A stretch of 24,927 nt of DNA. Source: Sanchytrium tribonematis. Its lineage: Eukaryota > Sanchytriomycota > Sanchytriomycetes > Sanchytriales > Sanchytriaceae. Every line of letters begins with the position of its first letter. Position 1 is the first letter of the stretch. The notes under the pieces were generated by a model that saw only the letters and a list, made by a program, of their open reading frames with translations, was not told where the DNA came from and did not search any database. Below are positions 91 through 24,422 of this stretch, in pieces. The position numbers and the translations under genes were made by a program. The DNA lies in the NCBI GenBank assembly GCA_018985235.1, contig JADGIG010000070.1, forward strand, positions 1-24,927, written 5' to 3'.

Positions 91-1828
91 TTATTTTCTC
101 AAGACAGATTTGGCAGAATATGTCTGCAATTCACTGCCAGGAACAAACGTAAATCCTACAAATTGTTTTTGCACTGATTCTGATAGCCTAGCTTCTTCAA
201 AAGAGTCTTTAGGCATTTCGTTAGTGAAAACTTCATCAAAATTACTTGTGTCACCTGCTGCTGCCACTCTGGGTTTGAATGGTGGGACAATTTGCTTTTT
301 GTAGAGCTTTTCAAAATCAATTTCCTGAAAAAAAGCATGTCCTTTAATTTGGGATTCGTTAAATCTCTTAGCTGGATCCTTTTCAATTATACCTGATAAA
401 ATATTTACCGCTAATGGTGACATATAACCAGGAAATACGACCTGATCCGTCATAATTCTTTTGTACATAACCTGTATGTTTTCATCATAGAATGGGGGAA
501 GTCCAGTAATCATCTCGAATAACAAAATTCCGAGTGTCCACCAATCTATCGATTTTGTATAGCCCTGGCCGTGGAGAACTTCAGGGGCCAGATATTCTGG
601 TGTTCCACAGAAAGTGGACGTTTTATCTTCTGTATTTGTATTAATTTTGCATAATCCAAAATCACATAATGCAATATGACCTACACCATCAAGTAAAATA
701 TTTTCAGGCTTAAGATCTCGATCTAAATAAATATTGTTTACAAATTATATTGTATTTATGTAGACATTCCAGTGCCAGCACCAGCTCTGCAGCATAAAAT
801 TTTGAACGCACCTCGCCAAATCGACCCTCGTTTTGAAGATGGTGGAATAATTCCCCACCATTAATAAAATCGAGGCAGAAGTACAGTTTCTCAGGGGTTT
901 GAAATGAAAATTTGAGAGAAACAATAAAAGGATGGTTGATTTTTGCCAAAACCTGCCTCTCCGCCAAGGTATGTTCAACCTCGTCAGTCTCCACTATGTG
1001 GCTTTTCTTGATAATTTTCATAGCGTAAACACGGCCAGTATCTTTTTTTCGAACCTGCATAACTTTCCCAAATGATCCTTTCCCAATGACTTTCATCAAT
1101 TCAAAATCTTCCATTGTGATTGCTTTACCAGCAGGTCGAGCAAGGCTTAATTGCAAATGGATTTGACCAGGTGTTTTTCCTACGGGAAGAGGAACTGGTG
1201 GATGAACAGTGAGCCATATGTCTACTAGTTTTTCGTAAACAGTTGGAATTGGAATAATAACAGATCCTAAAAGTACGTCTTGTTGCTCCAATGTATTTTC
1301 AGTGACTTTAATAGACTTTTTCCTATCCCTGGCTCTACCAGCTTGTTCTTCTAGCGCCTGTACTTGTCTTCTATCTTCTTCCTCGTCAACTGTCTTTTGA
1401 TAGACATTCAAAATTAGTTCAGCTTCTCTTGTGAAATCAAATGAAACCTTTGCTTTCCAGGTTGGAGTATCCATTTTACCACTACTGGAGAACATGGTTA
1501 TTTCATTTTTGTCATACTGAATGACTACATAGGGATTATAATAGATAAAATCCATATTTCCTTGTTTAAATTTTTTTTCTCTTTGATCTGTAGGGATTTT
1601 GTCTAATACACCTAACGGAATATAGAGATTTTTGGCTTCAATAACGCGACAAGAGAAAATACCAAGACTGTCGCTCTTATCTGTTTTATCTAGCTTTTCA
1701 GTTAAGTTGGTTTTTACGGGAGCTGGTGACACCTCCTCTTTCTTTTCAGAGGGAGATTTTGGAGATTTTACATCTTCAACATCAACACCAGAAGGTGTCT
1801 TTTTAAAAATTTTATTTAGTAGACCCAT
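91..1828 (-). CDS. Ypk1/Gad8-like AGC kinase with N-terminal C2-like domain (one 19-nt intron)
   Basis: This is an AGC-family Ser/Thr kinase of the Ypk1/Gad8/SGK type, a TORC2 effector controlling membrane lipids, actin and stress responses in fungi. The coding sequence is complement(91..722, 742..1828), 572 residues. A C2-like region covers about residues 55-230, interrupted by a charged insert. The kinase domain begins near 240, with glycine loop GKGSFGKV (249-256), Lys271, catalytic YRDLKPEN (Asp365), DFG (383-385) and activation loop TFCGTPEY (Thr399). The AGC tail has DTSNFDE and hydrophobic motif FVGFTF near the C-terminus. The reading frame breaks within YRD unless a 19-nt GT...AG intron at 723-741 is removed. 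Its removal restores the catalytic loop exactly, so this is not a pseudogene. The start is 33 nt from the Nit1 stop. The stop TAA lies inside AATAAA. Ypk-type is well supported; the S. pombe relative Gad8 also carries a C2 domain. Confidence 0.95.
723..741 (-). other. 19-nt spliceosomal intron in the Ypk-like kinase gene
   Basis: On the coding strand the intron reads GTAAACAATATTTATTTAG. It is a phase-1 intron splitting the Tyr codon of the YRDLKPEN catalytic loop. Retaining it gives an in-frame TAA nine codons later. Removing it joins two halves of an otherwise continuous, fully conserved kinase domain. GT and AG ends are canonical. There is no room for a separate branch-point region and polypyrimidine tract. 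Confidence 0.92.
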
Positions 1829-8709: not shown

Positions 8710-9002
8710 GACTTTTTATTTGGATTTTAAATTAAAATATTTGATTGGTCAATATCATCAAAGGTGATTGAAAGTTTTCTATTAGCGAACTGAAATTAAA
8801 GTCTGCAAAATGATCACTGAGCACCGAGCTCTTTTATCATTTTAAGATAAAAAGCGCTAGATTGCAAACTATGTTGTAGGGTTCGAATTGCGTCACATCT
8901 AAACACGTGATTGATACTGTGTGACTTCACAAGTTTTAAATGGAAACACATCCAATTTGCCACGCAAAAATACCGTGATTTGTTTAATTTGTACTAGCCA
9001 GC
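8710..9002. promoter_or_regulatory. Divergent intergenic region, PNRC-like / Kv channel
   Basis: 293 nt without a convincing ORF. It holds an imperfect hairpin (8827-8838 with 8846-8858: TTTTATC against GATAAAA, flanked by AGC/GCT). It also holds a CACGTG E-box (8904-8909) within ACACGTGAT, and GTGTGACTTCAC (8920-8931). The last element closely resembles GTGTGACTTTAC at 10129-10140 before the next plus-strand gene. I see no tRNA. Confidence 0.5.
8904..8909 (+). promoter_or_regulatory. CACGTG E-box in the Kv channel promoter
   Basis: The palindrome CACGTG lies about 94 nt upstream of the Kv ATG, in the context AAACACGTGATTGA. CACGTG is bound by bHLH factors such as Cbf1/Pho4 in fungi. It is one of three copies of ACACGTGAT found in intergenic DNA here. 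Confidence 0.45.
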
Positions 9003-9986
9003 ATGAAAAAAAAGAAAACAAATTCATTTTCTTATTGGAATGAAGTTTTAAATTATCCGTTCCATAGCAAATTAGGGTATGCCATATTCACTTTGAATAC
9101 CATTGTGATTATAATATCAATGATCAATGTTCTTTTATCTACCATGTGGAGTTATATTGATTCTGAGGCTGCCAGGGATAAATTTGTTATTATAGATCTA
9201 TTAACAAATGTTTATTTCATTTTTGAGTGGATCATCAGAGTCTACACTTCCAAAAACAAAACTAAGCTATTAAAATCTAAGATAGTATGGCTTGAGGGTC
9301 TTTCTAATTTGGTAATAATAGCAGACATAGAATTTTTAATTTCAAGTAGAAATGATTGGATTATAACTGGATGGGTGCCGCTGCTTTGTACTATTAGATG
9401 TTTTAGACTCTGCAGATTATATTGGCATTCATTTCAACTTCAGCTAGCCTGGAAAGCTGTCCGTCAAGCGAGAGATGGTCTGATTATGATGATTGTTTTG
9501 TCTTGTATATCTCTATTATTTTTAGCAAATATACTCTATTTTGCGGAAGAACTCTCCTGCGAAACTAGAAACAATGTGAGGTACTACATTTCTGGTCCAG
9601 AAGTAGGGAAACCATGTGCATTTCAAAGTCTGTTTGATGCCTATTGGTTTACGGTCTGTTCAATCACAACAACTGGCTATGGCGATATTGTCCCAAAAAC
9701 AGCACAGGGAAAGACTATTGCTGCTTTTGTTATGCTACTTGCTGTTGTAATGTTTACCTTTCCGATCACAATAATTAGTGCTCATCTAACAGAAATATAT
9801 ATGAGAGAAAAACAGAGGAGACGGTTCAAAAAAAATAACGTCATAGATCCCTCTCTCAGCACGAAAAATGTCTGCAAAACATTGATATCAAAATGTGAGA
9901 ATGATATAGAATTGATTACAAAACAACTTGTTCAATTGCAAAGTATTTTGTCGCAAGTATCAAAAAATACTGACCTTTCTGACTAA
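9003..9986 (+). CDS. Voltage-gated potassium channel (Kv-type, six-TM)
   Basis: The 327-residue protein has a complete Kv-type layout. S1 lies near 26-46. S2 ends with EWIIRVY (Glu75 and Arg79, the gating charge partners). S3 contains Asp108. S4, RCFRLCRLYWH, has basic residues at every third position (Arg132, 135, 138). S5 is near 158-181. The pore loop has selectivity filter TTTGYGD (222-228). S6 is near 236-262 with FPIT, where animal Kv channels have PVP. The cytoplasmic tail is short and partly coiled, with no tetramerisation T1 domain at the N-terminus. The product is a plasma- or organelle-membrane K+ channel. Two Cys in the S5-pore turret (186, 205) could form a disulfide. The stop is TAATAAA. 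Such channels are uncommon in fungi but present in early-diverging lineages. Confidence 0.93.
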   Translation: MKKKKTNSFSYWNEVLNYPFHSKLGYAIFTLNTIVIIISMINVLLSTMWSYIDSEAARDKFVIIDLLTNVYFIFEWIIRVYTSKNKTKLLKSKIVWLEGLSNLVIIADIEFLISSRNDWIITGWVPLLCTIRCFRLCRLYWHSFQLQLAWKAVRQARDGLIMMIVLSCISLLFLANILYFAEELSCETRNNVRYYISGPEVGKPCAFQSLFDAYWFTVCSITTTGYGDIVPKTAQGKTIAAFVMLLAVVMFTFPITIISAHLTEIYMREKQRRRFKKNNVIDPSLSTKNVCKTLISKCENDIELITKQLVQLQSILSQVSKNTDLSD

Positions 9987-10132: not shown

Positions 10133-10143
10133 GACTTTACCCT

Positions 10144-12705
10144 ATGGTTGCCCCTTTCGCACAGATCAATTTTAATAGATTTGCGATCTATTGCAATTAC
10201 TCCTTGATGACAAATTGGTCTGCGTTACAATTACACTGCCAGACTTTGATCAAAGACTTTTCTGAAAGTGGGTATGAAAAGCACCTTTTGGGTGGTAACA
10301 TCACTGCTTCTAATCTCACTGTCTCTCAACAGGATGGATGTCTTAAAGCAAAAGATGCCAAACAGTCTGACTTTTGGACTTCTTTTGATACATGTCAAAG
10401 TCACCGATATTTGTGGGTTCATTTAGACGTCGACGTTGATGCTTCATTCAAAGTTAAGACAAAGGACTGTCAGGACGTTGAACAAACTCATGAAGTGAGC
10501 TGTTCGAATGGCACATGGTCCACTCCAAGTGGTACATATTACGATGGTTTTCTTATAAAAGTCACCGGGATCAAGAAATTTCATTTAGAAGAATCCAGTG
10601 TGGATGAATGGAAATTGAAGAAATTATCTTTTGTTGACTGCCCAATGCCAGGAGATTCTGACTATAAGCATCCAGAAAACTACACAATTGGTGTTCAAAA
10701 TGGTACAGGTAATGTGAACTGGACTATGGCTAAGAACCACACTGCCAATGGAACTATCAATTGGGATATGGCTAAACATCACAATGGCACCGCACAAGTC
10801 AATTGGGACATGGCAAAACACCATAATGCTACTGCAAATCTAAAATGGGAAATGGCTAAAAATTGGACTGGAGATGGAAAAGTTGACTGGAAGTTGGCTT
10901 CTACCCATAATGGAACCGCAATTTACAATGAAGGTCTAAAGACGAAGGATCCTGTAACTTACCCTCCTCAAAATGCGCCTGCTTCTAATGGTTGGGTATC
11001 ACCGCCTTCATCACCAGAACCAGTGAAAGCTGCAGTACCTACTCCTATCGTTGACCCAAAGCCATGGACAAGAGAAAACATTTACGGAAACTGTTTTGCT
11101 TTGCCTATTCACGATTTTAATAAGTCATTATCGGATGTGGAGTTTTCAAACTACTCAGCCCGTGTTTTAGGCTCTAAAGGGGAGATTAAATACGCTACTG
11201 GAACAAATGAATTACCATTTGACTTACAATGGTACGACATGTTGTTAATCGAATTCACTGCGACCGCTGGAACTGCCTTTACAGTTGAGTTAGAGCAAAA
11301 TAATAAGTGGCATAAGTCTCCTTATTCTAGAATTGTCATTCCTGACAATAGACATAGAAGCGTGTTATTAGATTTAAGCGAATTTAAATGGGAAAACAAA
11401 TGGACCACCGGCATCAAGTTTAGCTCTTTTACTGGAGAATTGAAAATCGACTTCACCAAAATTAGTTTTTTGAATTGCAACCATGTTGACAAGGTTGAAA
11501 CACCTGCTTTACCTGTTTGCACGGCACAAAAGATTGTTTTGAATGACTTCTTTACCGGAGAGAAAAACAGAAATAGAAGAGGATTGAGAATGGGTTGCGA
11601 TGGAACTGCTGAGTACATCACTTTGAATAATGGCTCATTAGAATTGAAACCATATCAAAATTCAACCAACCAAACGTATTGGTACACAAACATTGGTACT
11701 CCTTGCTTTAATCAATCTTTAAGTGAATTTAAAAGACCTAGTTTAGAAATTGAGGTGAAAGCACCTGCTGGTTCGTTGTATGATATTCAATTGGAATTCG
11801 CTGACAAATGCTGGTCAGAGAAAGGAGATTATAGCAGACAGAACTACACTGTTAAGCAAGTCCCTAGTGCTGCGTATGCTCAACATGTCAATGACTCAGT
11901 TCAAGCATTGAGAATCCCTCTAGAAAGCTCTGAATTCTTAAACTTGTTTAGTCTTTATCTCATGAATATCCACTCCACTGGCTCGTTAGTGTTAAATCAC
12001 ATTCATATCGTTGATGTTGCTTGTAGATATGAAGTAATTGCACCTACTCCTACTCCCACCACAACAACTAAAAACATTGCAGCACCTGCGCCACTTCCTG
12101 CAACCAACTACACTATCCCAGCTCCACTTCCATCCAATGGCTCTGTAGAAAACTACACTGTTCCTCCAAGCCCTCCATCAGAACATAAGGTTAAGAAATA
12201 TTATGCTTTGAACAACTTTACTTCCAATGATCCTCAAAAGAACATCAGAGGATTTAAAATGGGATGCGACGGTACTGCAAATTACTCTCAAGTCGCAAAT
12301 GGTACATTTGAGTTAAATTCTTACGATCCTAAAGATAACACTACCGCTAATACTTATTGGTACACAAATGTTGGTGCTCCTTGTTTTGCTCAAAACTTTA
12401 CTGATTATAAGAAACCTGCTATTGAAATTCAAGCTTTTGCTGTAGCAAATACTACGTTTGAGATACAATTGCAATTTGCAGATTCATGCAATCACACTGA
12501 AAGAGATCATTACAAAGTTAAGCAATTCCACTCAAAAGATCTGGCTCAATGGACTTCGGACTGCGACAAATATGTCCACATCCCTGTTGATCATGATGAT
12601 TTCCACAATTTATTTAGCATTTATTTGTTGAATATCGATTCTAAAAACTCTATCAAGTTGGATCATATTCATGTTGTTGATCTTGACGACGATGCTACTC
12701 AATAA
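10144..12705 (+). CDS. Large modular glycoprotein-like protein with four related beta-sandwich-type modules and W-x-MAK repeats
   Basis: This 853-residue protein is not recognised. Four modules of about 115-170 residues can be aligned by eye. They lie at about residues 32-166, 317-446, 459-627 and 687-846. Each opens with a (L/I)x(D/N)F-type strand and closes with a strand such as KLSFVDC, KISFLNC, HIHIVDVAC or HIHVVDLDD. Modules 3 and 4 are most alike and share MGCDGTA, YWYTN, PCF and FAD elements. The pattern suggests a carbohydrate-binding-like jelly roll, but that is inference. Between modules 1 and 2 are five units of 12-16 residues with NGT and W-x-MAK. A Pro/Thr/Ala-rich linker precedes module 4. 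About thirty N-x-S/T sequons and many Cys imply secretion or surface exposure. No proper signal peptide is visible from this ATG, so the 5' end may be wrong or need a missed intron. Codon choice looks different (more C-ending), fitting high expression. The stop is CAATAAA. Confidence 0.75.
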   Translation: MVAPFAQINFNRFAIYCNYSLMTNWSALQLHCQTLIKDFSESGYEKHLLGGNITASNLTVSQQDGCLKAKDAKQSDFWTSFDTCQSHRYLWVHLDVDVDASFKVKTKDCQDVEQTHEVSCSNGTWSTPSGTYYDGFLIKVTGIKKFHLEESSVDEWKLKKLSFVDCPMPGDSDYKHPENYTIGVQNGTGNVNWTMAKNHTANGTINWDMAKHHNGTAQVNWDMAKHHNATANLKWEMAKNWTGDGKVDWKLASTHNGTAIYNEGLKTKDPVTYPPQNAPASNGWVSPPSSPEPVKAAVPTPIVDPKPWTRENIYGNCFALPIHDFNKSLSDVEFSNYSARVLGSKGEIKYATGTNELPFDLQWYDMLLIEFTATAGTAFTVELEQNNKWHKSPYSRIVIPDNRHRSVLLDLSEFKWENKWTTGIKFSSFTGELKIDFTKISFLNCNHVDKVETPALPVCTAQKIVLNDFFTGEKNRNRRGLRMGCDGTAEYITLNNGSLELKPYQNSTNQTYWYTNIGTPCFNQSLSEFKRPSLEIEVKAPAGSLYDIQLEFADKCWSEKGDYSRQNYTVKQVPSAAYAQHVNDSVQALRIPLESSEFLNLFSLYLMNIHSTGSLVLNHIHIVDVACRYEVIAPTPTPTTTTKNIAAPAPLPATNYTIPAPLPSNGSVENYTVPPSPPSEHKVKKYYALNNFTSNDPQKNIRGFKMGCDGTANYSQVANGTFELNSYDPKDNTTANTYWYTNVGAPCFAQNFTDYKKPAIEIQAFAVANTTFEIQLQFADSCNHTERDHYKVKQFHSKDLAQWTSDCDKYVHIPVDHDDFHNLFSIYLLNIDSKNSIKLDHIHVVDLDDDATQ
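10699..10917 (+). repeat. In-gene tandem repeat encoding sequon-bearing W-x-MAK units
   Basis: Five consecutive units of 12-16 residues (typically 14), such as NGTAQVNWDMAKHH, then a partial sixth (NGTAIYNEG). Each full unit has a Trp and an M-A-K or similar turn, and most carry an N-x-T sequon. At the DNA level the units have diverged at third positions, so the repeat is old or selected at protein level. Confidence 0.85.
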
Positions 12706-13792: not shown

Positions 13793-13802
13793 TAAATTTA
13801 TT
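13791..13802. terminator. Palindromic poly(A) signal shared by BFR2 and 7TM-RGS gene A
   Basis: AATAAATTTATT is a perfect 12-bp palindrome, so it reads AATAAA on both strands. It overlaps the stop codons of both convergent genes (TAA at 13790-13792 on plus; TAA at 13798-13800 on minus). One short element can thus provide both stops and both poly(A) signals. Confidence 0.7.
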
Positions 13803-14832
13803 TTACATATGGTAGAATATTGTCATTTACAAGTGTTACAATTTGCTCTGCAACTAAATACAATTTTGAAGGGTTTTCCAGCACCTCGAGCCTAAGGCTT
13901 TCGCAAATATTCAACTGATAGATTGAGCCCACATTTATAAAATCCATATAAATTATATCCAATAGCTTCTTTTCTCCACAGCGTTCAAAATCCTCATACA
14001 CTCTAAGAAATTTAACATTTTCCTCGCAAAAAAATTGCCTAGCAGTTTCTTCCAGATAATCGATATTATAGAATGTTCCCATTACTTGAATATTTCGAGT
14101 TTGCAATTTGTAATTAAGAAAGTAGAGAATGGGATAGTAAGCACCCCAAAATATAAAGTTTATACCTTGAAATGTGTTATCTAGTGAGTAATTCACCTCA
14201 AAATGGATCCTAGATAAAACCAAGACAATAGCAATTATAATTGTACAAACAAATTTTCCCAAAAGTTCATTCCTCATACCGATTCTGTCCTTAACATTAT
14301 AATGTATGATGCCGATGACGAATGTCACCTCGAGTATCATTAAAGCTATAGTAACTCCATAGCTAATTACAAATGGGTGTTCTTCACACCTAAAATCAAA
14401 ATCCGGTTCCTCCAAAGCTATAAAATTGTAAATCAAAGGTATACCCTCACTCAAAATTAAGGCCACTGCTGCAAATAATATACACCGACTTTTTCGAATC
14501 TTGTTCTTTTCATCCCACAGAAATCGAGTTAAATATTTGATACTACTTTTTTCTTCCACTAAGTAGTTGAAAATAAATGTTGTTCTAATAATATATACAA
14601 CTAGTGCGATGGTGGATACAAATTGAATAGAAATACAAGGGGAATGGGTCCAGGATAGTATGAGGGAGATATATGAGGAGAAAAGCCCTAACAATAAGAG
14701 TTTTGGTCTCCTTTTTGATATAATCAATTTCTTGTAATTCACTAATAGAAAGATCAATCCAAGTACAAAAAACACTGTTAATGATATGATCATTGCTACG
14801 GAATCTAATATACTTTTATTTTTATGTGACAT
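13798..14832 (-). CDS. 7TM-RGS protein A (seven-helix receptor-like with C-terminal RGS domain)
   Basis: The 344-residue protein has seven hydrophobic segments over about residues 12-240, then a C-terminal RGS domain from about 258 to the end. The RGS part shows ARQFFCEENVKFLRVYEDFE (helix 4-type E-E-N-x-x-F), a central DIIYMDFIN, then YQLNICESLRLEVLENP and AEQIVTLVNDNILPYV. This follows the order of canonical RGS helices. It is short (about 87 residues against 120) and lacks some helix 1-3 sequence. RGS domains speed GTP hydrolysis by G-alpha, and 7TM-RGS hybrids are known in plants (AtRGS1), amoebae and some fungi. The loop VKDRIGMRNE (180-189) is almost identical in the neighbouring paralogue and may be a family signature. 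The ligand is unknown. Confidence 0.85.
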   Translation of the reverse strand: MSHKNKSILDSVAMIISLTVFFVLGLIFLLVNYKKLIISKRRPKLLLLGLFSSYISLILSWTHSPCISIQFVSTIALVVYIIRTTFIFNYLVEEKSSIKYLTRFLWDEKNKIRKSRCILFAAVALILSEGIPLIYNFIALEEPDFDFRCEEHPFVISYGVTIALMILEVTFVIGIIHYNVKDRIGMRNELLGKFVCTIIIAIVLVLSRIHFEVNYSLDNTFQGINFIFWGAYYPILYFLNYKLQTRNIQVMGTFYNIDYLEETARQFFCEENVKFLRVYEDFERCGEKKLLDIIYMDFINVGSIYQLNICESLRLEVLENPSKLYLVAEQIVTLVNDNILPYVK

Positions 14833-15020
14833 TATAGCTTTTCGGGCCTACCAAGAGGACGTTCAACCAGATAGATATTATGGACCACATGGTCAAGCAA
14901 TGTCTTATCAAAAGGCCGAAATCAAATTCATGCAAATATTTTTATGATTATTTGAAATCTTAAGAATATCTCAGTGAGAATGCCAGAAATTTTTTATGTT
15001 GAACGTCAATTTTAGATAGA
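14833..15020. promoter_or_regulatory. Intergenic region between the two 7TM-RGS genes, with a 10-bp inverted repeat
   Basis: 188 nt holding the 3' end of gene B and the promoter of gene A (both minus strand). GACGTTCAAC (14858-14867) and GTTGAACGTC (14998-15007) are exact reverse complements. A small hairpin GACCA-CA-TGGTC lies inside (14883-14894). A structured RNA closed by the repeat is possible but no known family fits. Confidence 0.45.
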
Positions 15021-16025
15021 TTACACATGTATCAACAAGTTTTCGCGGACCATTTGAATGACCTCGTCGTATGCTAAATGCAGTGTGGTAGGATCGTCAA
15101 GAATAGAAATTCTAGTTTTTTCACATAAATTTAGTTGAAATTTAGACTTCCTTTTTATAAAAGAGTTGATGATTTCATTCAAAATCAGTTCATCGGGCTC
15201 AAATTGATACTCATAATATTTTTGTAAGAATAAGATATTCTCGGAACAAAAAAATTGCTTTCCCACCTTCATTAAATCCGAAAAATCATGTTGTTCGTCA
15301 GGCAATAACAAAGTTCTGTTTCTTCGTTTAAAATAAGCTAAATAGATGAGAGGGTACCATACTCCCCAAAATATAGCTATTATTCCGATAGTGAGATCGA
15401 TATAAATTGTTGGGAAAGGAAATCTTTTTTGTAAAATTTGAGAAACGATCCCGACTAACATAGCCGAAAAAACTCTTCCAATAACCTCGTTTCTCATCCC
15501 AATACGATCCTTTACTTTTTGTCTAAACATAAGGCCAATGAAAATTAGTCCTGCTAATATAAAAATGAAAATGAATGGTAGACGAATATAGGGAGGGTAT
15601 ATTTCACAAGTGTATTGGGAGACATGTTGAATCACATTATACGCCGCCATAGCACCTAAAGATAAAACCAAATCAACAGAGCAAATCAATAATGACTGCA
15701 ATTTTCGTAATTTGTGATGTTCTCCCCAAAATAAATAGTTGAAAGATTTGACCCAACATTTTTTTTCACTCAAATAATTGTAAATGTAAGCTGTTCGAAG
15801 CAATGAAATGTACAGTAGAATAATAGTCAATGCCTGAGTCAGCATACAAGGTACGCCGCAGATCTGCAACACTGTAATAGTAAACCAAAGCCACTGATCT
15901 ACAAATAGTAAATGTGGTAATCTTCTGGCAATGACTACATGATTCACATGATACAGTTGAATAGAGAAGCCAGAAATGAAATAAAATAAGAGGACAAATA
16001 TCGTCCAAAGTGGTAATTCGAGCAT
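15021..16025 (-). CDS. 7TM-RGS protein B (tandem paralogue)
   Basis: The 334-residue paralogue of the gene downstream has the same organisation: seven membrane segments (about 5-232), then an RGS-like tail (about 247-334). Shared landmarks are LLRTAYIYNYLSEK (TTFIFNYLVEEK in A), VKDRIGMRNEVIG (171-183), IFWGVWYPLIY before the tail, and QFFCSENILFLQKYYEY at the RGS core. Overall identity is low, so the duplication is old. It is probably a G-alpha GTPase-accelerating receptor at a membrane. A glucose-sensing role like that of AtRGS1 would be speculation. The 58 nt before its ATG run directly to the stop of the GRAM-VASt gene, leaving little promoter. No AATAAA is seen at its stop, unlike most neighbours. 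Confidence 0.83.
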   Translation of the reverse strand: MLELPLWTIFVLLFYFISGFSIQLYHVNHVVIARRLPHLLFVDQWLWFTITVLQICGVPCMLTQALTIILLYISLLRTAYIYNYLSEKKCWVKSFNYLFWGEHHKLRKLQSLLICSVDLVLSLGAMAAYNVIQHVSQYTCEIYPPYIRLPFIFIFILAGLIFIGLMFRQKVKDRIGMRNEVIGRVFSAMLVGIVSQILQKRFPFPTIYIDLTIGIIAIFWGVWYPLIYLAYFKRRNRTLLLPDEQHDFSDLMKVGKQFFCSENILFLQKYYEYQFEPDELILNEIINSFIKRKSKFQLNLCEKTRISILDDPTTLHLAYDEVIQMVRENLLIHV

Positions 16026-16083
16026 GAAGATTAGGGTGGTTTTAGATCAATCTCCACGCAGAGAAAAAAACAAATAGTGCTAT

Positions 16084-17858
16084 TTAATTTATTGACAATG
16101 CTGTGACTATAAATTTCATAAATAAATAAAGATTGAATAAAAATAAAAATATCAGAACTGCTAAAATAACTTCATCGATATTTAGTGACGAAATCCAAAA
16201 GGTGAATGCAACTTTCGCTTCCGTGATCTTGGAAATTTCTTCAACGCTTCCCTTTCGCTTTTTCTTCGCTTTAGATATGCCCTTGTCTATTTGGTCCAGC
16301 GCATCACTATAAAACTTCTTGACTCTATCGGATACTCGTTTATCAACTTTAGATTCTTGGAAAACTGTCTTCTTGTAGTCTACTCGAACACTTACGGACA
16401 ATTTTGAATGCTTTCCCTCGTTTAAAATTTCTACCCTATGAAGGGAAACATAATTTGGTACGTTTTGACTAGATGACACAGGTATACCAGAGCTTTGAAT
16501 TTCCACCAAATACCTTTGTTAATATAAAATTACTTCTCATTTTCAACTGAATTTACGAGATAATGAATATCTGAAAATTTAAAAAGCTCGGTTGGGCGAT
16601 TCACCTTGTAAGCAATAGTACGTGAATTGCATTTAGATTGAGTACCTGATATAGTATCTTTGTAGAGTACCTCCGACCAGTGTGTTATTTCGAGGTCAAT
16701 GGCACCCTGACTTTGTAAGGTTCGCTGTAAAAGTGGAGATTCGAATAGAAATCGGTAAATATACTTTGGTTTAAGCTTGATCAGCTTTTCAAAAACAATC
16801 ATTTTAAATTGAGAACCGATGGGAAGATTTGACATAGAGGGTACACTTAGTAATGGCTTCAGTAATTTATCTACGTCGGGAGAACCGGGAACATAAGGTT
16901 TTGGTGAGGGACTATTTTTACCAATATCCTCCGCTATAACATTTAGACTGTCCATAGTTTTGCTGATAGAGATAGAACTTTTTTGTCTTGGTTTGGTTTT
17001 TTCGGTAATTTGAGCCTGAATAGTAGCTAAACTTTTACCCATGTTGGACCAAAAAGCTTTAACAGGATCATTTGGATTAAGCTGAAGTGCAGCTTGATTA
17101 TCCTTCTTATCTTCGGAGGCTGATTTTATATCAATGACATCTTCAAGAGCTTCTTTAATTTTCATTGGTGTATTTGCACTTTGGATCGTGGGGGATTTGC
17201 TCAAATCTATATCAGCACTTGCAATTCTAGAAATGCTTTCTTGTTCCCCCAATAGCTTTTCCTGTAGAGTTGATCCAATGTCGTCCTCCTCACTATTTTT
17301 TAAAGCATTTGTGACCGAAGATTTCGGAAACACAATTTCTTCTTGACTATTCGACATGTTAGGAATCTTGAGAGTGGATTCCCCAATAAGAGCCGCATAC
17401 TCTTTACAAGAATCTTCCCAGTAGAGCTGCATTAATTTATGAGCAGCGTTCCTTTTTAAAAACGATACAAATGTGTAAAAATTTTGAGTAGTGTAAATCC
17501 TAATTGCGTTGGGAAATACACTTGCTGTATTTCTCTTTTCTATATTGACAATATCGTGCAAGTAAATTTTAATTTTTACAACATTTGCAGCATCCTGTCC
17601 AATATATCCTAAAATGGACTTGTTTACGATCAGTCTTCCCGTGTTGGTCGTATTCTCCAGGCAGCATGTAAATATTTGATTCATATCCAGCTCTTGTAGC
17701 TCAAATTCTAATCGCAATAATTCCAAATCAATTACGTCAATACCACTCTTTGTTTGGATTTCGTTCGGGGAATTTAAATCTGATTGCGAAGAAAATCTTC
17801 TATTCTTGTGTTGCTGTAAATCGGTTAAGGCATCAATCGTTGGCGATAACGAGGACAT
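16084..17858 (-). CDS. GRAM-VASt sterol-transfer protein (Lam/Ysp/Aster family), one 20-nt intron
   Basis: The coding sequence is complement(16084..16513, 16534..17858), 584 residues. A GRAM domain lies at about 49-150 (NTGRLIVNKSILGYIG, then LHDIVNIEKR and FYTFVSFLKRNAAHKLMQLYWE). A long Ser/Lys-rich linker follows. The VASt/ASTER domain starts near 350 (FEKLIKLKPKYIYRFLFESP ... EITHWSEVLY ... KVNRP) and continues across the intron into exon 2 (IQSSGIPVSSSQNVPNY ... LSVSVRVDYKKTVFQESKVD). A single membrane anchor of about 22 residues lies near the C-terminus. This is the architecture of yeast Lam/Ysp2 and animal GRAMD1/Aster proteins, which tether ER to other membranes and move sterols. Without splicing, exon 1 stops at once (AAG TAA). 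With splicing the VASt domain is intact. The frame extends upstream to a GTG at 17990, but the first ATG (17858) is preferred. Confidence 0.88.
16514..16533 (-). other. 20-nt spliceosomal intron in the GRAM-VASt gene
   Basis: On the coding strand: GTAATTTTATATTAACAAAG. It sits between codons for ...ENE-K and YLVEIQSS, inside the VASt domain. Removal restores one frame of 584 codons; retention gives TAA at the splice site. A TTAAC that could act as a branch site ends only 4 nt before the 3' end. Confidence 0.88.
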
Positions 17859-21763: not shown

Positions 21764-22396
21764 TTAATTAGATCGCGTGGATTTTAGCTTCATTAAAATT
21801 GAAAGCCCGTCAGCTATAAAAGTGATGTATATAAGATGTCCTAAGATGATCAACCAGGACGTATTTTCGCATGCTGTTTTCCATATCCTCTGATTACTGA
21901 CTTGTGGATCTACTGAGGCTGTACACGCTATACCTCTTATATTGATCGGCCTGCTATCATTTGTTAGTGGGAATAGAAAGCCAATTGAAGAAACTGCCCA
22001 GATCAAGACGAAGGCAAAATCTATGAAGCAAGTGACTTTTAAAAATTCTCTACTAGACATTATCTCGAAAAGTCTTGTTTTCTTGCTTTCGGTTGAACCG
22101 CCTTGTTCTATCGTTTTAGAAATAGTAGCAACAAAGCGAAATAAAAGAAAAAATAAAGTTGTGTATACTAATGATACGATCGTCAGAGTGAATGTGAAAT
22201 CTTGTCTAAACGTATAAACCTCAGAAGATGATGGATACGAAGGCGAAGATAAGTCTCCGATATTTGCTTTCAAAATGCTTTCGTTTTCTTTAATCAAGAT
22301 TATCATTGTCAGCGTAAATATTACTTGTAATATGTAAATGAAAGGTCTCTTGTTGACTTTTCTGCTTTCCTCTGATTCCGAATCTTCTTCAAACAT
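21764..22396 (-). CDS. Four-TM MARVEL-like membrane protein A
   Basis: A 210-residue protein with an acidic/basic N-terminus and four hydrophobic helices (about 19-36, 66-90, 121-144, 179-201). This is the layout of MARVEL-domain proteins, which organise fungal membrane compartments. The loop between helices 3 and 4 holds two Cys (158, 176), a possible lumenal disulfide. Motifs shared with the next gene are YTFRQDFTFTL before helix 2, GFLFPL at the end of helix 3 and the ACTAS that follows. The exact family is not certain, so MARVEL-like is a description of topology. The stop TAA is followed by ATAAA to form AATAAA. No function can be given. Confidence 0.7.
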   Translation of the reverse strand: MFEEDSESEESRKVNKRPFIYILQVIFTLTMIILIKENESILKANIGDLSSPSYPSSSEVYTFRQDFTFTLTIVSLVYTTLFFLLFRFVATISKTIEQGGSTESKKTRLFEIMSSREFLKVTCFIDFAFVLIWAVSSIGFLFPLTNDSRPINIRGIACTASVDPQVSNQRIWKTACENTSWLIILGHLIYITFIADGLSILMKLKSTRSN

Positions 22397-22461
22397 CTTT
22401 CGAATTGTGGCCTATCAACAAAAGCTACAAATGTGACTAATTTATTCATATGATCCATTCT

Positions 22462-23094
22462 CTATTGACTTTTATTTAAGTAAAGCAAGCCGAAAATCCC
22501 GCTGGATAAATAGGATATGCTCAGCGTATATTCAATGACAATCAAGCTATTGCAACTGTTGCAGATCTCCAGCCAAGGCTTAGGGTCTTGCAATCTATCA
22601 TCCTGAGAAGCCGTGCAACTGACGCTCTTGACATCGATTGGTGTGTCTTGATCTATTATAGGAAATAGAAACCCACTTGCAACTCCTACACATAAGAGAA
22701 TCAGTAAAAAATCAATAATAACACCAGCCTTGGTTATTAATTTGTTGGTTCTTGTATATCTTCTTTTTCTTAAATCTACGTCAAGACTGTCATCATCTTC
22801 GGAGGATTTCCCTGATTTTAATACTAAAAAGAAACCACTTAACAATGCAGCATACAGTATACATAAAACAGACAATGCTAAAGTGAATTGCTGTCTGAAT
22901 ACGTATAATTGATCTCTGTTGGGATATAAGCTACTGGGCAGTTTATATAAGTTTCGACTGATTAAATTAAGATTATTTGTAGTTAAATAAACCGCCGATG
23001 CACTCAAAATAAGCTGGATAAGCTTAAAGCTCACTCTTTTATCGAAAGGTTCATTTGGATTCTCGTTTTCAATGATACTGGAATTTTCCGACAT
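22462..23094 (-). CDS. Four-TM MARVEL-like membrane protein B (tandem paralogue)
   Basis: Also 210 residues, with the same four-helix plan (about 23-40, 68-93, 121-146, 183-205). It shares YVFRQQFTLAL, GFLFPI and SCTAS with protein A. The 3-4 loop has Cys at about 160, 178 and 181. The loop between helices 2 and 3 is more charged (SSEDDDSLDVDLRKRR), suggesting a cytosolic face with phosphorylation sites. It lies 65 nt upstream of protein A in the same orientation. Tandem duplication is the simple explanation for equal length, order and motifs. The stop is TAG, unlike the TAA/TGA of neighbours, and AATAAA falls in the preceding Asn-Lys codons. Confidence 0.7.
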   Translation of the reverse strand: MSENSSIIENENPNEPFDKRVSFKLIQLILSASAVYLTTNNLNLISRNLYKLPSSLYPNRDQLYVFRQQFTLALSVLCILYAALLSGFFLVLKSGKSSEDDDSLDVDLRKRRYTRTNKLITKAGVIIDFLLILLCVGVASGFLFPIIDQDTPIDVKSVSCTASQDDRLQDPKPWLEICNSCNSLIVIEYTLSISYLSSGIFGLLYLNKSQ

Positions 23095-23141
23095 TTTTGA
23101 TTCAGTGATGTTTTTGACCCAAATAGAAATTTTAAAGAAAT

Positions 23142-24422
23142 TTATTCCTGCATAGATTCAAAGCTGTTTGTAGAGCTTGACTTTTTTAAGTCAGAAAATG
23201 GGTCTGCTTTTAGCTTAAGCATATTATCTACAGACTCAGGAGATTTCATTAATGTATCAATACAGGTTGGTAGATCACCTTCGTTTGTATCGACAATCAT
23301 TGCATCTATTTCAGAGGTTTCTGGTTCTTTAGATTTAGTGTGACCAATAACTTTCACCAATTTGCTTGCATCCACGTTATTAGTGAAAGTTGTTTTTAAG
23401 GTATCAGAGGAAATCGTCCTTGAATTATTACCAGCTAATGGTAAACTGAGGCTAGACACGTAGGGTGCTCGTTGATAGCTTAATTCTGGGCTATATCTTA
23501 TCGGGCTACTGAAATCGCCCCCCTTTCTCTTGAACTTATTAGGAGTCCTATTAAGAGTAATTTTTGGAGTTCTGCGAATAGGACTCTGAATAATGACTCG
23601 ATCTTGCCTTATGGTTGGCTCTCTTTCCAAAATAGATTCTTCGACGTCTTGCTTCAAGGCGTCAGCAGCAAATTGTTCCAATCTCTGATTTTGAAGCAGA
23701 AGTACCTCCTCACTATCATATGGCTTACCAACACAGACCGGAGCAGATTGAGCCTCAGAATATGGCTTAGCCCCACCGGGTATACTGTATTCAAAAGTGG
23801 GACCAAAATTCACTTTTACCGCTCCACCTTTCCATATTCCAATTGCAGGATAATATGTGCCTAAATACAGTGAGGGAAATCCCTTTACAATCTGTCCATT
23901 AATAAAGTAAGTTATTCTGCTCCCTTCTTTCCAAATCTCCACTTCTGGCTGATTTACCGTAGTACACCCATAAAGCTTCTTCGGATTCCACCTTCTGCTG
24001 ATCAATATCGCTTCTTCTTCTTCAGTTTGACTATCAGGCAGTTCTATTAATATTCCTACAGTATCTCCAACTTTAAATCCGATTCTACTTTCAAAAGTTT
24101 CTCTGGCAATGGCTTGGTGGTATAAGCGACCCGTATTTGAAAATCCATATCCAAAACTATCATAGCCAGGGTAAGACTGGAGATCTGCACTTATTTGAGC
24201 AAATCCAACACGACAATGACCTTCTATCAATGTAATTTCATAATACCAGGATCCACTAATGAGTGCAAAATTTCCTTTTCCAGTTCTCCATCCCATGTTG
24301 TTTTTAATAACATTGGCTTCTCTTTGAATTTGGGGTGCTGAAAGAACATTTTCTTTGCTAATGGTGACAGGGTCAGTCAAGGTATTTTGTAAATCGCAAT
24401 ATAATTCGTAACGAAATGACAT
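23142..24422 (-). CDS. Ash2/Bre2-type SPRY protein (COMPASS H3K4 methyltransferase subunit)
   Basis: The 426-residue protein has a SPRY domain at about 38-215 typical of ASH2L/Bre2. Supporting stretches are GSWYYEITLIEGHCRVGFAQ, GYDSFGYGFSNTGRLYHQAI, VGDTVGILIELP, EGSRITYFINGQIVKGF, and YYPAIGIWKGGAVKVNFGPTFEY. In ASH2L the equivalent order includes ARLGWSQ, GYDKFSYSWR, GxKxHQS, VYFPAISLYK and VxINFGPxFxY. The domain binds RbBP5 and stimulates Set1/MLL methylation of histone H3 Lys4. The N-terminal PHD/winged-helix of ASH2L is absent, as in Bre2. The C-terminal 200 residues are low-complexity with repeated S/T-P sites (SPIRRTP, NRTPNK, SSPIRYSP), likely phosphorylated. The stop is GAATAAA. 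Confidence 0.88.
   Translation of the reverse strand: MSFRYELYCDLQNTLTDPVTISKENVLSAPQIQREANVIKNNMGWRTGKGNFALISGSWYYEITLIEGHCRVGFAQISADLQSYPGYDSFGYGFSNTGRLYHQAIARETFESRIGFKVGDTVGILIELPDSQTEEEEAILISRRWNPKKLYGCTTVNQPEVEIWKEGSRITYFINGQIVKGFPSLYLGTYYPAIGIWKGGAVKVNFGPTFEYSIPGGAKPYSEAQSAPVCVGKPYDSEEVLLLQNQRLEQFAADALKQDVEESILEREPTIRQDRVIIQSPIRRTPKITLNRTPNKFKRKGGDFSSPIRYSPELSYQRAPYVSSLSLPLAGNNSRTISSDTLKTTFTNNVDASKLVKVIGHTKSKEPETSEIDAMIVDTNEGDLPTCIDTLMKSPESVDNMLKLKADPFSDLKKSSSTNSFESMQE

Follow-up and report, generated by a model that had tools for sequence, protein, structure and literature searches.

Probable U2-type introns of 19–20 nucleotides in a sanchytrid-like zoosporic fungus

A kinase gene in the 24,927-nt stretch of DNA analysed here (the window, meaning that whole stretch) is interrupted in its catalytic loop by 19 nt, which almost certainly constitute a U2-type spliceosomal intron, one of a class of 19–20-nt introns in a sanchytrid-like zoosporic fungus. 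The evidence comes from the restored reading frame and protein domain, from related kinases broken at the same codon, from other split genes of the same genome and from a shared internal motif. Coordinates of the window features are collected in Table 1.

The interrupted kinase and its relatives

The frame of the unspliced kinase reads ...LHKYNII at the end of exon 1 and is then lost (CKQYLFRSRS followed by a stop), so that the open reading frame (ORF) ends ...HKYNIICKQYLFRSRS and a stop. Written on the minus strand, the junction is ...CTACATAAATACAATATAATTT / GTAAACAATATTTATTTAG / ATCGAGATCTTAAGCCT..., with the cut placed 1 base past ATT (exon 1 ending ...ATAATTT). Removal of the 19 nt gives LHKYNIIYRDLKPENILL, the spliced form reading HKYNIIYRDLKPENILL, within an open frame of 572 aa. 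The initial annotation had described a 19-nt intron in an AGC kinase whose excision would restore YRDLKPEN, and the joined frame does read NIIYRDLKPEN. The Pfam Pkinase profile scored 102.2 bits on exon 1 alone (profile positions 1–120) and 120.1 bits on exon 2 alone (positions 122–263), while the joined exons reached 243.6 bits over the full domain (positions 1–263), with a weak C2 region upstream of Pkinase and Pkinase_C downstream. Named relatives among the matches listed are fungal kinases, many of them labelled AGC protein kinase Gad8. The 19-nt interruption of the kinase is confirmed as an observation, and its reading as an intron is supported by the sequence features described below.

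Table 1. Features of the two interrupted genes of the window, with counts over the 30-intron anatomy set where these apply.
Feature	Position	Strand	Remarks
19-nt intron of the kinase gene	723..741	(-)	GTAAACAATATTTATTTAG; phase 1, within the kinase catalytic loop
5' splice site of the kinase intron	739..741	(-)	GTA; found in 29/30 introns
yUnAy motif of the kinase intron	727..731	(-)	TTTAT; intron positions 11–15, −9 to −5
Predicted branch A of the kinase intron	728	(-)	position 14, −6; putative branch site
3' splice site of the kinase intron	723..726	(-)	TTAG; AG 30/30 (by selection), TAG 26/30, TTAG 17/30
Kinase exon 1	742..1828	(-)	weak C2 region and N-terminal kinase lobe through HKYNII
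Kinase exon 2	91..722	(-)	(Y)RDLKPEN to stop; C-terminal lobe and Pkinase_C
20-nt intron of the GRAM-VASt gene	16514..16533	(-)	GTAATTTTATATTAACAAAG; its removal unites two ORFs, giving a 584-aa protein
GRAM-VASt exon 1	16534..17858	(-)	GRAM, 34.8 bits in the exon 1 ORF
GRAM-VASt exon 2	16084..16513	(-)	end of VASt and C-terminal hydrophobic stretch; no Pfam match alone

Seven GT..AG joins leave the frame open at the kinase locus. Among the joins listed, the 19-nt join is the only one that gives NIIYRDLKPEN as in the Paraphysoderma kinase (P0006). A 43-nt join also restores YRDLKPEN, but it deletes CLHKYNII and was rejected.

Three close relatives, P0002, P0003 and P0004 (77–79% identical to the window kinase), have ORFs that likewise stop directly past NII, the sequence before the break being HKFNII in P0004. 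For P0003, removal of 19 nt was the sole solution that suited both frames (lengths 8–60 and seven exon ends were tried), with or without a GT..AG requirement, and it places the intron at the same nucleotide; this back-translation assumes that exon 2 of P0003 encodes the same residues as that of the window kinase, with one residue left free. In P0002 and P0004 too little of the ORF follows the break for the length to be determined: at least 14 nt and at least 20 nt, respectively, are compatible, on the assumption that each ORF ends at a stop codon. Exon 2 ORFs for P0003 and P0004 were located on contigs. A search of the viral contigs collection returned no relatives.

The second intron of the window interrupts a gene for a GRAM-VASt protein, which we take to be Ysp2/LAM-like. 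Its VASt domain (37.6 bits) was matched in the joined protein only; neither ORF alone matches.

A class of 19–20-nt introns in the genome

The genome was surveyed for other split kinases, following a suggestion in the initial annotation to look for short GT..AG interruptions of conserved ORFs. A 6,336,753-bp assembly gave 129 kinase matches, among which 22 split pairs, the window's included, were chosen by eye. Five of these pairs lie in one open frame and 17 are frame-shifted. Every one of the 17 frame-shifted pairs closes with a GTA..AG join, 19 nt long in 14 cases and 20 nt long in 3. The next-best GTA..AG length closed at most 4/17 pairs, and with any GT..AG join allowed the runner-up length closed 6/17, so the join is more than a chance fit. 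Six other end pairs, applied to the same 17 breaks, closed no more than 4/17 at 19 nt, and no more than 7 whatever the length up to 60 nt. Two kinase matches (L049 and L022) contain internal stops. On this survey, the predicted kinase intron is a member of a class and not a lone oddity.

These results bear directly on whether the 19 nt stem from faulty sequencing or assembly, or whether the kinase gene is a pseudogene that their insertion has disabled. A lone 19-nt out-of-frame insertion would look just like the window locus taken singly; however, removal of the same length with the same motif restores all 17 frame-shifted kinases, three relatives break at the same codon, one of them with exactly 19 nt, and the kinase profile is kept in both exons. 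We consider an error or a pseudogene very improbable.

A motif-blind scan was made of 221,106 bp (the window and 20 contig stretches, with a GC content of 35.3%), allowing removals of 10–80 nt and requiring both flanking ORFs to span at least 60 codons and each to be broken without the join. There were 11 GT..AG joins of 19 nt and 4 of 20 nt, compared with 0–3 per length at 10–18 nt and 1–2 at 21–24 nt; directly adjoining the class there were 1 at 18 nt and 2 at 21 nt. The 11 GT..AG joins of 15–18 and 21–24 nt were simply taken as chance. The other 255 dinucleotide pairs gave a mean of 4.7 joins at 19 nt, with single pairs reaching 28, and at greater lengths GT..AG itself rose along with the rest, to 10 at 57 nt against a mean of 8.8 for the other pairs. 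By themselves, these length counts are not decisive. Joins with GTA..TAG ends numbered 9 at 19 nt and 3 at 20 nt, with at most 2 at every other length from 10 to 80 nt. In addition, each of the 15 motif-blind joins of 19–20 nt carries U at −8 together with A at −6, neither of which was used in their selection.

When the flanks were shortened to 20 codons and GT..AG joins were left unscored, no 19-nt peak was seen (135 joins, against 108–142 at the other non-multiple-of-three lengths of 14–29 nt). Scoring of the same DNA with a weight matrix built from the 17 kinase introns (score of at least 12) gave 20 joins of 19–20 nt, 3 of which are also in the matrix; the remaining fourteen lengths between 14 and 29 nt together gave 5. 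Scaled up, the scored joins correspond to about 570 per 6.34 Mb, that is, some hundreds of introns, to be read as an order of magnitude and not as a count. Searched by itself across the whole genome, the 20-nt motif GTAN8WTWAYTTAG shows no enrichment, with 48 matches versus 52 for its reversed control; motif counts alone therefore cannot size the intron set, and coding context was used. The intron signal emerges when conserved domains or long ORFs are examined, or when joins are scored for the motif. The 6.34-Mb assembly searched is incomplete, and its contigs as seen are all longer than 10 kb and may be a filtered subset; the published sanchytrid assemblies are given as 10.5 and 11.2 Mb, with GC contents of 36.3 and 34.6% (PMC8371127).

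Merging the kinase and motif-blind introns gave 30 distinct sequences, of which 23 are 19 nt and 7 are 20 nt long, with an AT content of 78.5%; the intron of the SF1 gene described below is not counted among them. Their start and end frequencies are entered in Table 1. U at −8 and A at −6 are invariant across the set, and 28 of the 30 have yUnAy at −9 to −5, compared with 3.4% of the 2108 GT..AG 19/20-mers in the same DNA. The motif also occurs in 19% of 153 AT-rich GTA..AG 19/20-mers, real introns among them. It played no part in the choice of the 17 kinase introns or the 15 motif-blind introns. T is present at +6 in 23 of the 30. G at +5 is usually important in 5' splice sites; it is found in just one of the 30, though the 5' end of the U1-like RNA (see below) looks canonical. 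The additional base of the 20-nt introns sits on the 5' side. Branch motif and 3' site thus make up a single block, in which the predicted branch A precedes the final G by 5 nt. In length the class is near-uniform at 19–20 nt, within a motif-blind search that covered removals of 10–80 nt.

Splicing machinery and a proposed mechanism

U2 snRNA (115.9 bits, with GTAGTA) and U6 snRNA (61.8 bits, with ACAGAGA) are present in the genome. A U1-like RNA (L059:1501–1647), with the 5' end ATACTTACCTTG, scored 43.7 bits, below the Rfam gathering score of 69.5. U4 and U5 snRNAs gave no match in the incomplete 6.34-Mb assembly; the controls for this search were also silent, hence this is not evidence of absence. 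Rfam models run over the window gave nothing above the gathering score.

The gene for SF1 was found via its KH domain on contig C225, and its best solved match is Splicing factor 1 (7vpx_D, 2.5e-41). Its exon 1 on C225 is identical to the EukProt protein NODE_304_length_10309.p9. Pfam searches of the genome with the PRP4 and SF1-HH families gave no match, and their controls were silent; run on the SF1 protein, SF1-HH scored 21.3–24.5 bits, under the cut-off of 29.3. The SF1 gene itself carries a 19-nt intron, GTATTTCGAACTTATTTAG, within the KH domain (L060:1657–1675; G000:C225:5276–5294), so making SF1 would need the very splicing that SF1 serves. The KH score is 43.9 for exon 1, with none for exon 2, and rises to 62.2 for the joined protein. 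Across the junction, the joined sequence DADLDQHVTIMASSWDKIKKA aligns without a gap to DADLNLHVCIMGSTWDKIKKA of the uninterrupted relative P0244. This gapless alignment to a protein without the intron supports the exact intron ends.

The initial annotation had proposed examining U2, SF1 and U2AF; the first two were found, and no U2AF large subunit exceeded the cut-off among the matches scanned (20 in the genome, the best at 51.6 bits, with the proteins of five loci scanned). The top U2AF protein score was 79.7 bits (L052; cut-off 310.3), and another RRM model scored higher at each locus. One of the loci, L051, looks CC1-like (198.5 bits, cut-off 231.65). The two bases between yUnAy and AG leave no room there for a polypyrimidine tract, which makes a reduced role for U2AF plausible.

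The length, the GT..AG ends, the fixed yUnAy, the site conserved in three relatives and the presence of U2, U6, the U1-like RNA and SF1 together fit spliceosomal removal. U1 and U6 would recognise a short 5' site (GTA, often with T at +6). SF1, and then U2, would recognise the yUnAy at its fixed place, with the branch A 5 nt ahead of the final G, and the 3' site would be the first AG past the branch motif. If the branch and the 3' site are locked together in this way, and 13–14 nt separate the 5' site from the branch A, the length of the intron would itself be part of the recognition signal. From these features we infer actual splicing, the identity of the branch-point A and the role of length. 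The class may then be described as one of ordinary mechanism and extreme size.

Translational bypass, in which ribosomes hop over the 19 nt, or programmed frameshifting could in principle take the place of splicing. Ribosome hopping is known from mitochondrial byp elements, and fixed lengths of 19–20 nt would suit a hop as well. However, the GT..AG ends and the fixed yUnAy (28/30) are splicing signals, the genome has U2, U6, the U1-like RNA and SF1, and 19 and 20 nt shift the frame differently, so that one frameshift rule cannot serve both. We therefore give bypass or frameshifting very little credence.

Spliceosomal introns of this class may also be turning over. The KH domain of SF1 is broken at different points in different relatives: DADLDQ^H in the genome's own SF1, LIGP^R in P0243 and KT^I in P0242 (^ marks the break). 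No SF1 break among the P0241, P0242 and P0243/P0244 ORFs is shared by all three, in a comparison that covers few ORF ends and takes P0243 and P0244 as one genome. For the P0243 break, no length from 8 to 60 nt fits strictly when at least 4 downstream residues are tested; with one substitution allowed, 20 nt is the sole fit up to 36 nt, a weak result. The differing breaks may possibly reflect recent intron gain or patchy loss. A broader and doubtful extension would be that Sanchytriomycota have only 19–20-nt introns throughout the phylum and are still gaining them as preformed units whose length and motif are fixed, with a spliceosome that does without +5G and perhaps without U2AF.

Placement of the genome and ultrashort introns elsewhere

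In a tree of the kinase, the window protein clusters with its three close relatives (100/99), and this cluster, on a stem of 0.85, is placed with Blastocladiomycota (100/99); the tree covers one gene and 41 rows, with 37 named proteins chosen from 120 listed. The earlier description of the genome as fungus-like agrees with this grouping on a long stem. Ciliates remove internal eliminated sequences from their DNA, and the elements described here are likewise short, AT-rich and uniform, but the chance that the window is unprocessed germline DNA from which the 19 nt are excised at the DNA level is practically negligible, given that the kinase falls among fungi as the sister of Blastocladiomycota (100/99), that the joined genes read in the standard code and that the elements bear splice-site and branch motifs.

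Sanchytrids are described as sister to Blastocladiomycota on a very long branch, and both published sanchytrid proteomes as TransDecoder ORFs on SPAdes contigs (PMC8371127). The present genome is probably that of a parasitic zoosporic fungus, either Amoeboradix gromovi or Sanchytrium tribonematis. If it is one of these published sanchytrids, intron-bearing genes would be split or shortened in its proteome. If so, sanchytrid gene counts, gene losses and sanchytrid-specific proteins would need redoing with 19–20-nt introns allowed. Among the matches listed in a search of titles and abstract starts in open-licence PubMed Central, none described introns this short in sanchytrids, and in the sanchytrid papers searched the word 'intron' occurs once each, in the reference list.

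Genomes with ultrashort introns are already known from nucleomorphs, mikrocytids and heterotrichs; the genome described here, probably that of a fungus, adds to them. The precedents named by the initial annotation, chlorarachniophyte nucleomorphs and heterotrich ciliates, both hold, and its list lacked the mikrocytids (16–17 nt, PMC10245619). Nucleomorph introns of chlorarachniophytes are reported as GT-AG and mostly 18–23 nt long, with a mode of 19 nt in Bigelowiella natans (70.3%) (PMC4494063). They thus resemble the present class in having GT-AG ends, in 19 nt being the commonest length (in B. natans) and in belonging to a reduced genome (PMC4494063). However, the nucleomorph is a remnant algal nucleus with 1.6–3.2 introns per gene (PMC4494063), whereas the introns described here are in a nuclear and probably fungal genome and are sparser (20 scored joins in 221 kb).

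The rhizarians Mikrocytos mackini and Paramikrocytos canceri are reported to have introns of 16–17 nt (217 and 7 of 224), with U2, U4 and U6 identified (PMC10245619). They resemble the present case in having some hundreds of introns of near-single length and conserved sequence in a reduced parasite (PMC10245619). Their 16–17-nt introns occur with U2, U4 and U6, compared with 19–20 nt and U2, U6 and a U1-like RNA here (PMC10245619).

In Stentor coeruleus, whose introns are 15–16 nt long, 90.9% of introns have their branch A at position 10 of 15 (PMC9505925). That places it at a fixed −6 from the 3' end, the same as is predicted here (PMC9505925). The distance from the 5' site to the branch is 9 nt in Stentor, a free-living ciliate, compared with the predicted 13–14 nt here, and the available text on Stentor describes no strong branch consensus, in contrast to yUnAy in 28/30 introns here (PMC9505925). 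A spliceosome spanning almost no distance had been thought necessary at the outset; since the predicted 13 nt between the 5' site and branch A of the kinase intron exceed the Stentor spacing, no unprecedented geometry would be needed. Introns of other Fungi and of Microsporidia are alike in their U2-type machinery, and those of E. cuniculi have a strong branch motif, CTAAYTT (PMC2483917).

Within Fungi, the shortest mean named in the available text of a survey is 63 bp (C. neoformans), and that text mentions no class near 20 nt (PMC8476143). Malassezia introns are termed very short, with no figure in the text available (PMC7426719); we accordingly do not claim the present introns as the first of their kind in Fungi. 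A zoosporic fungus with 19–20-nt introns would nevertheless put ultrashort introns inside the kingdom with the best-studied spliceosomes. The question of the minimum intron would become testable there, both for the spacing of the 5' site, branch and 3' site and for length replacing sequence as a signal.

Several other genes of the window were noted. The product of the ORF at 8988–9986 (+) matches Ion_trans (66.4 bits) and is an ion channel; its pore carries TTTGYGD, which makes it a likely K+ channel. An 856-aa ORF at 10135–12705 (+), with no Pfam match, has repeats of the NGTxNWDMAKHH type and many N-x-T sites, and by eye its product may be secreted. Two adjacent look-alike multi-span membrane proteins, also with no Pfam match, are encoded at 13798–14847 and 15021–16046 (-) and by eye perhaps combine 7TM with an RGS-like tail. 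A further adjacent pair of look-alike membrane proteins with no Pfam match, at 21764–22411 and 22462–23157 (-), is by eye perhaps a tandem duplicate.
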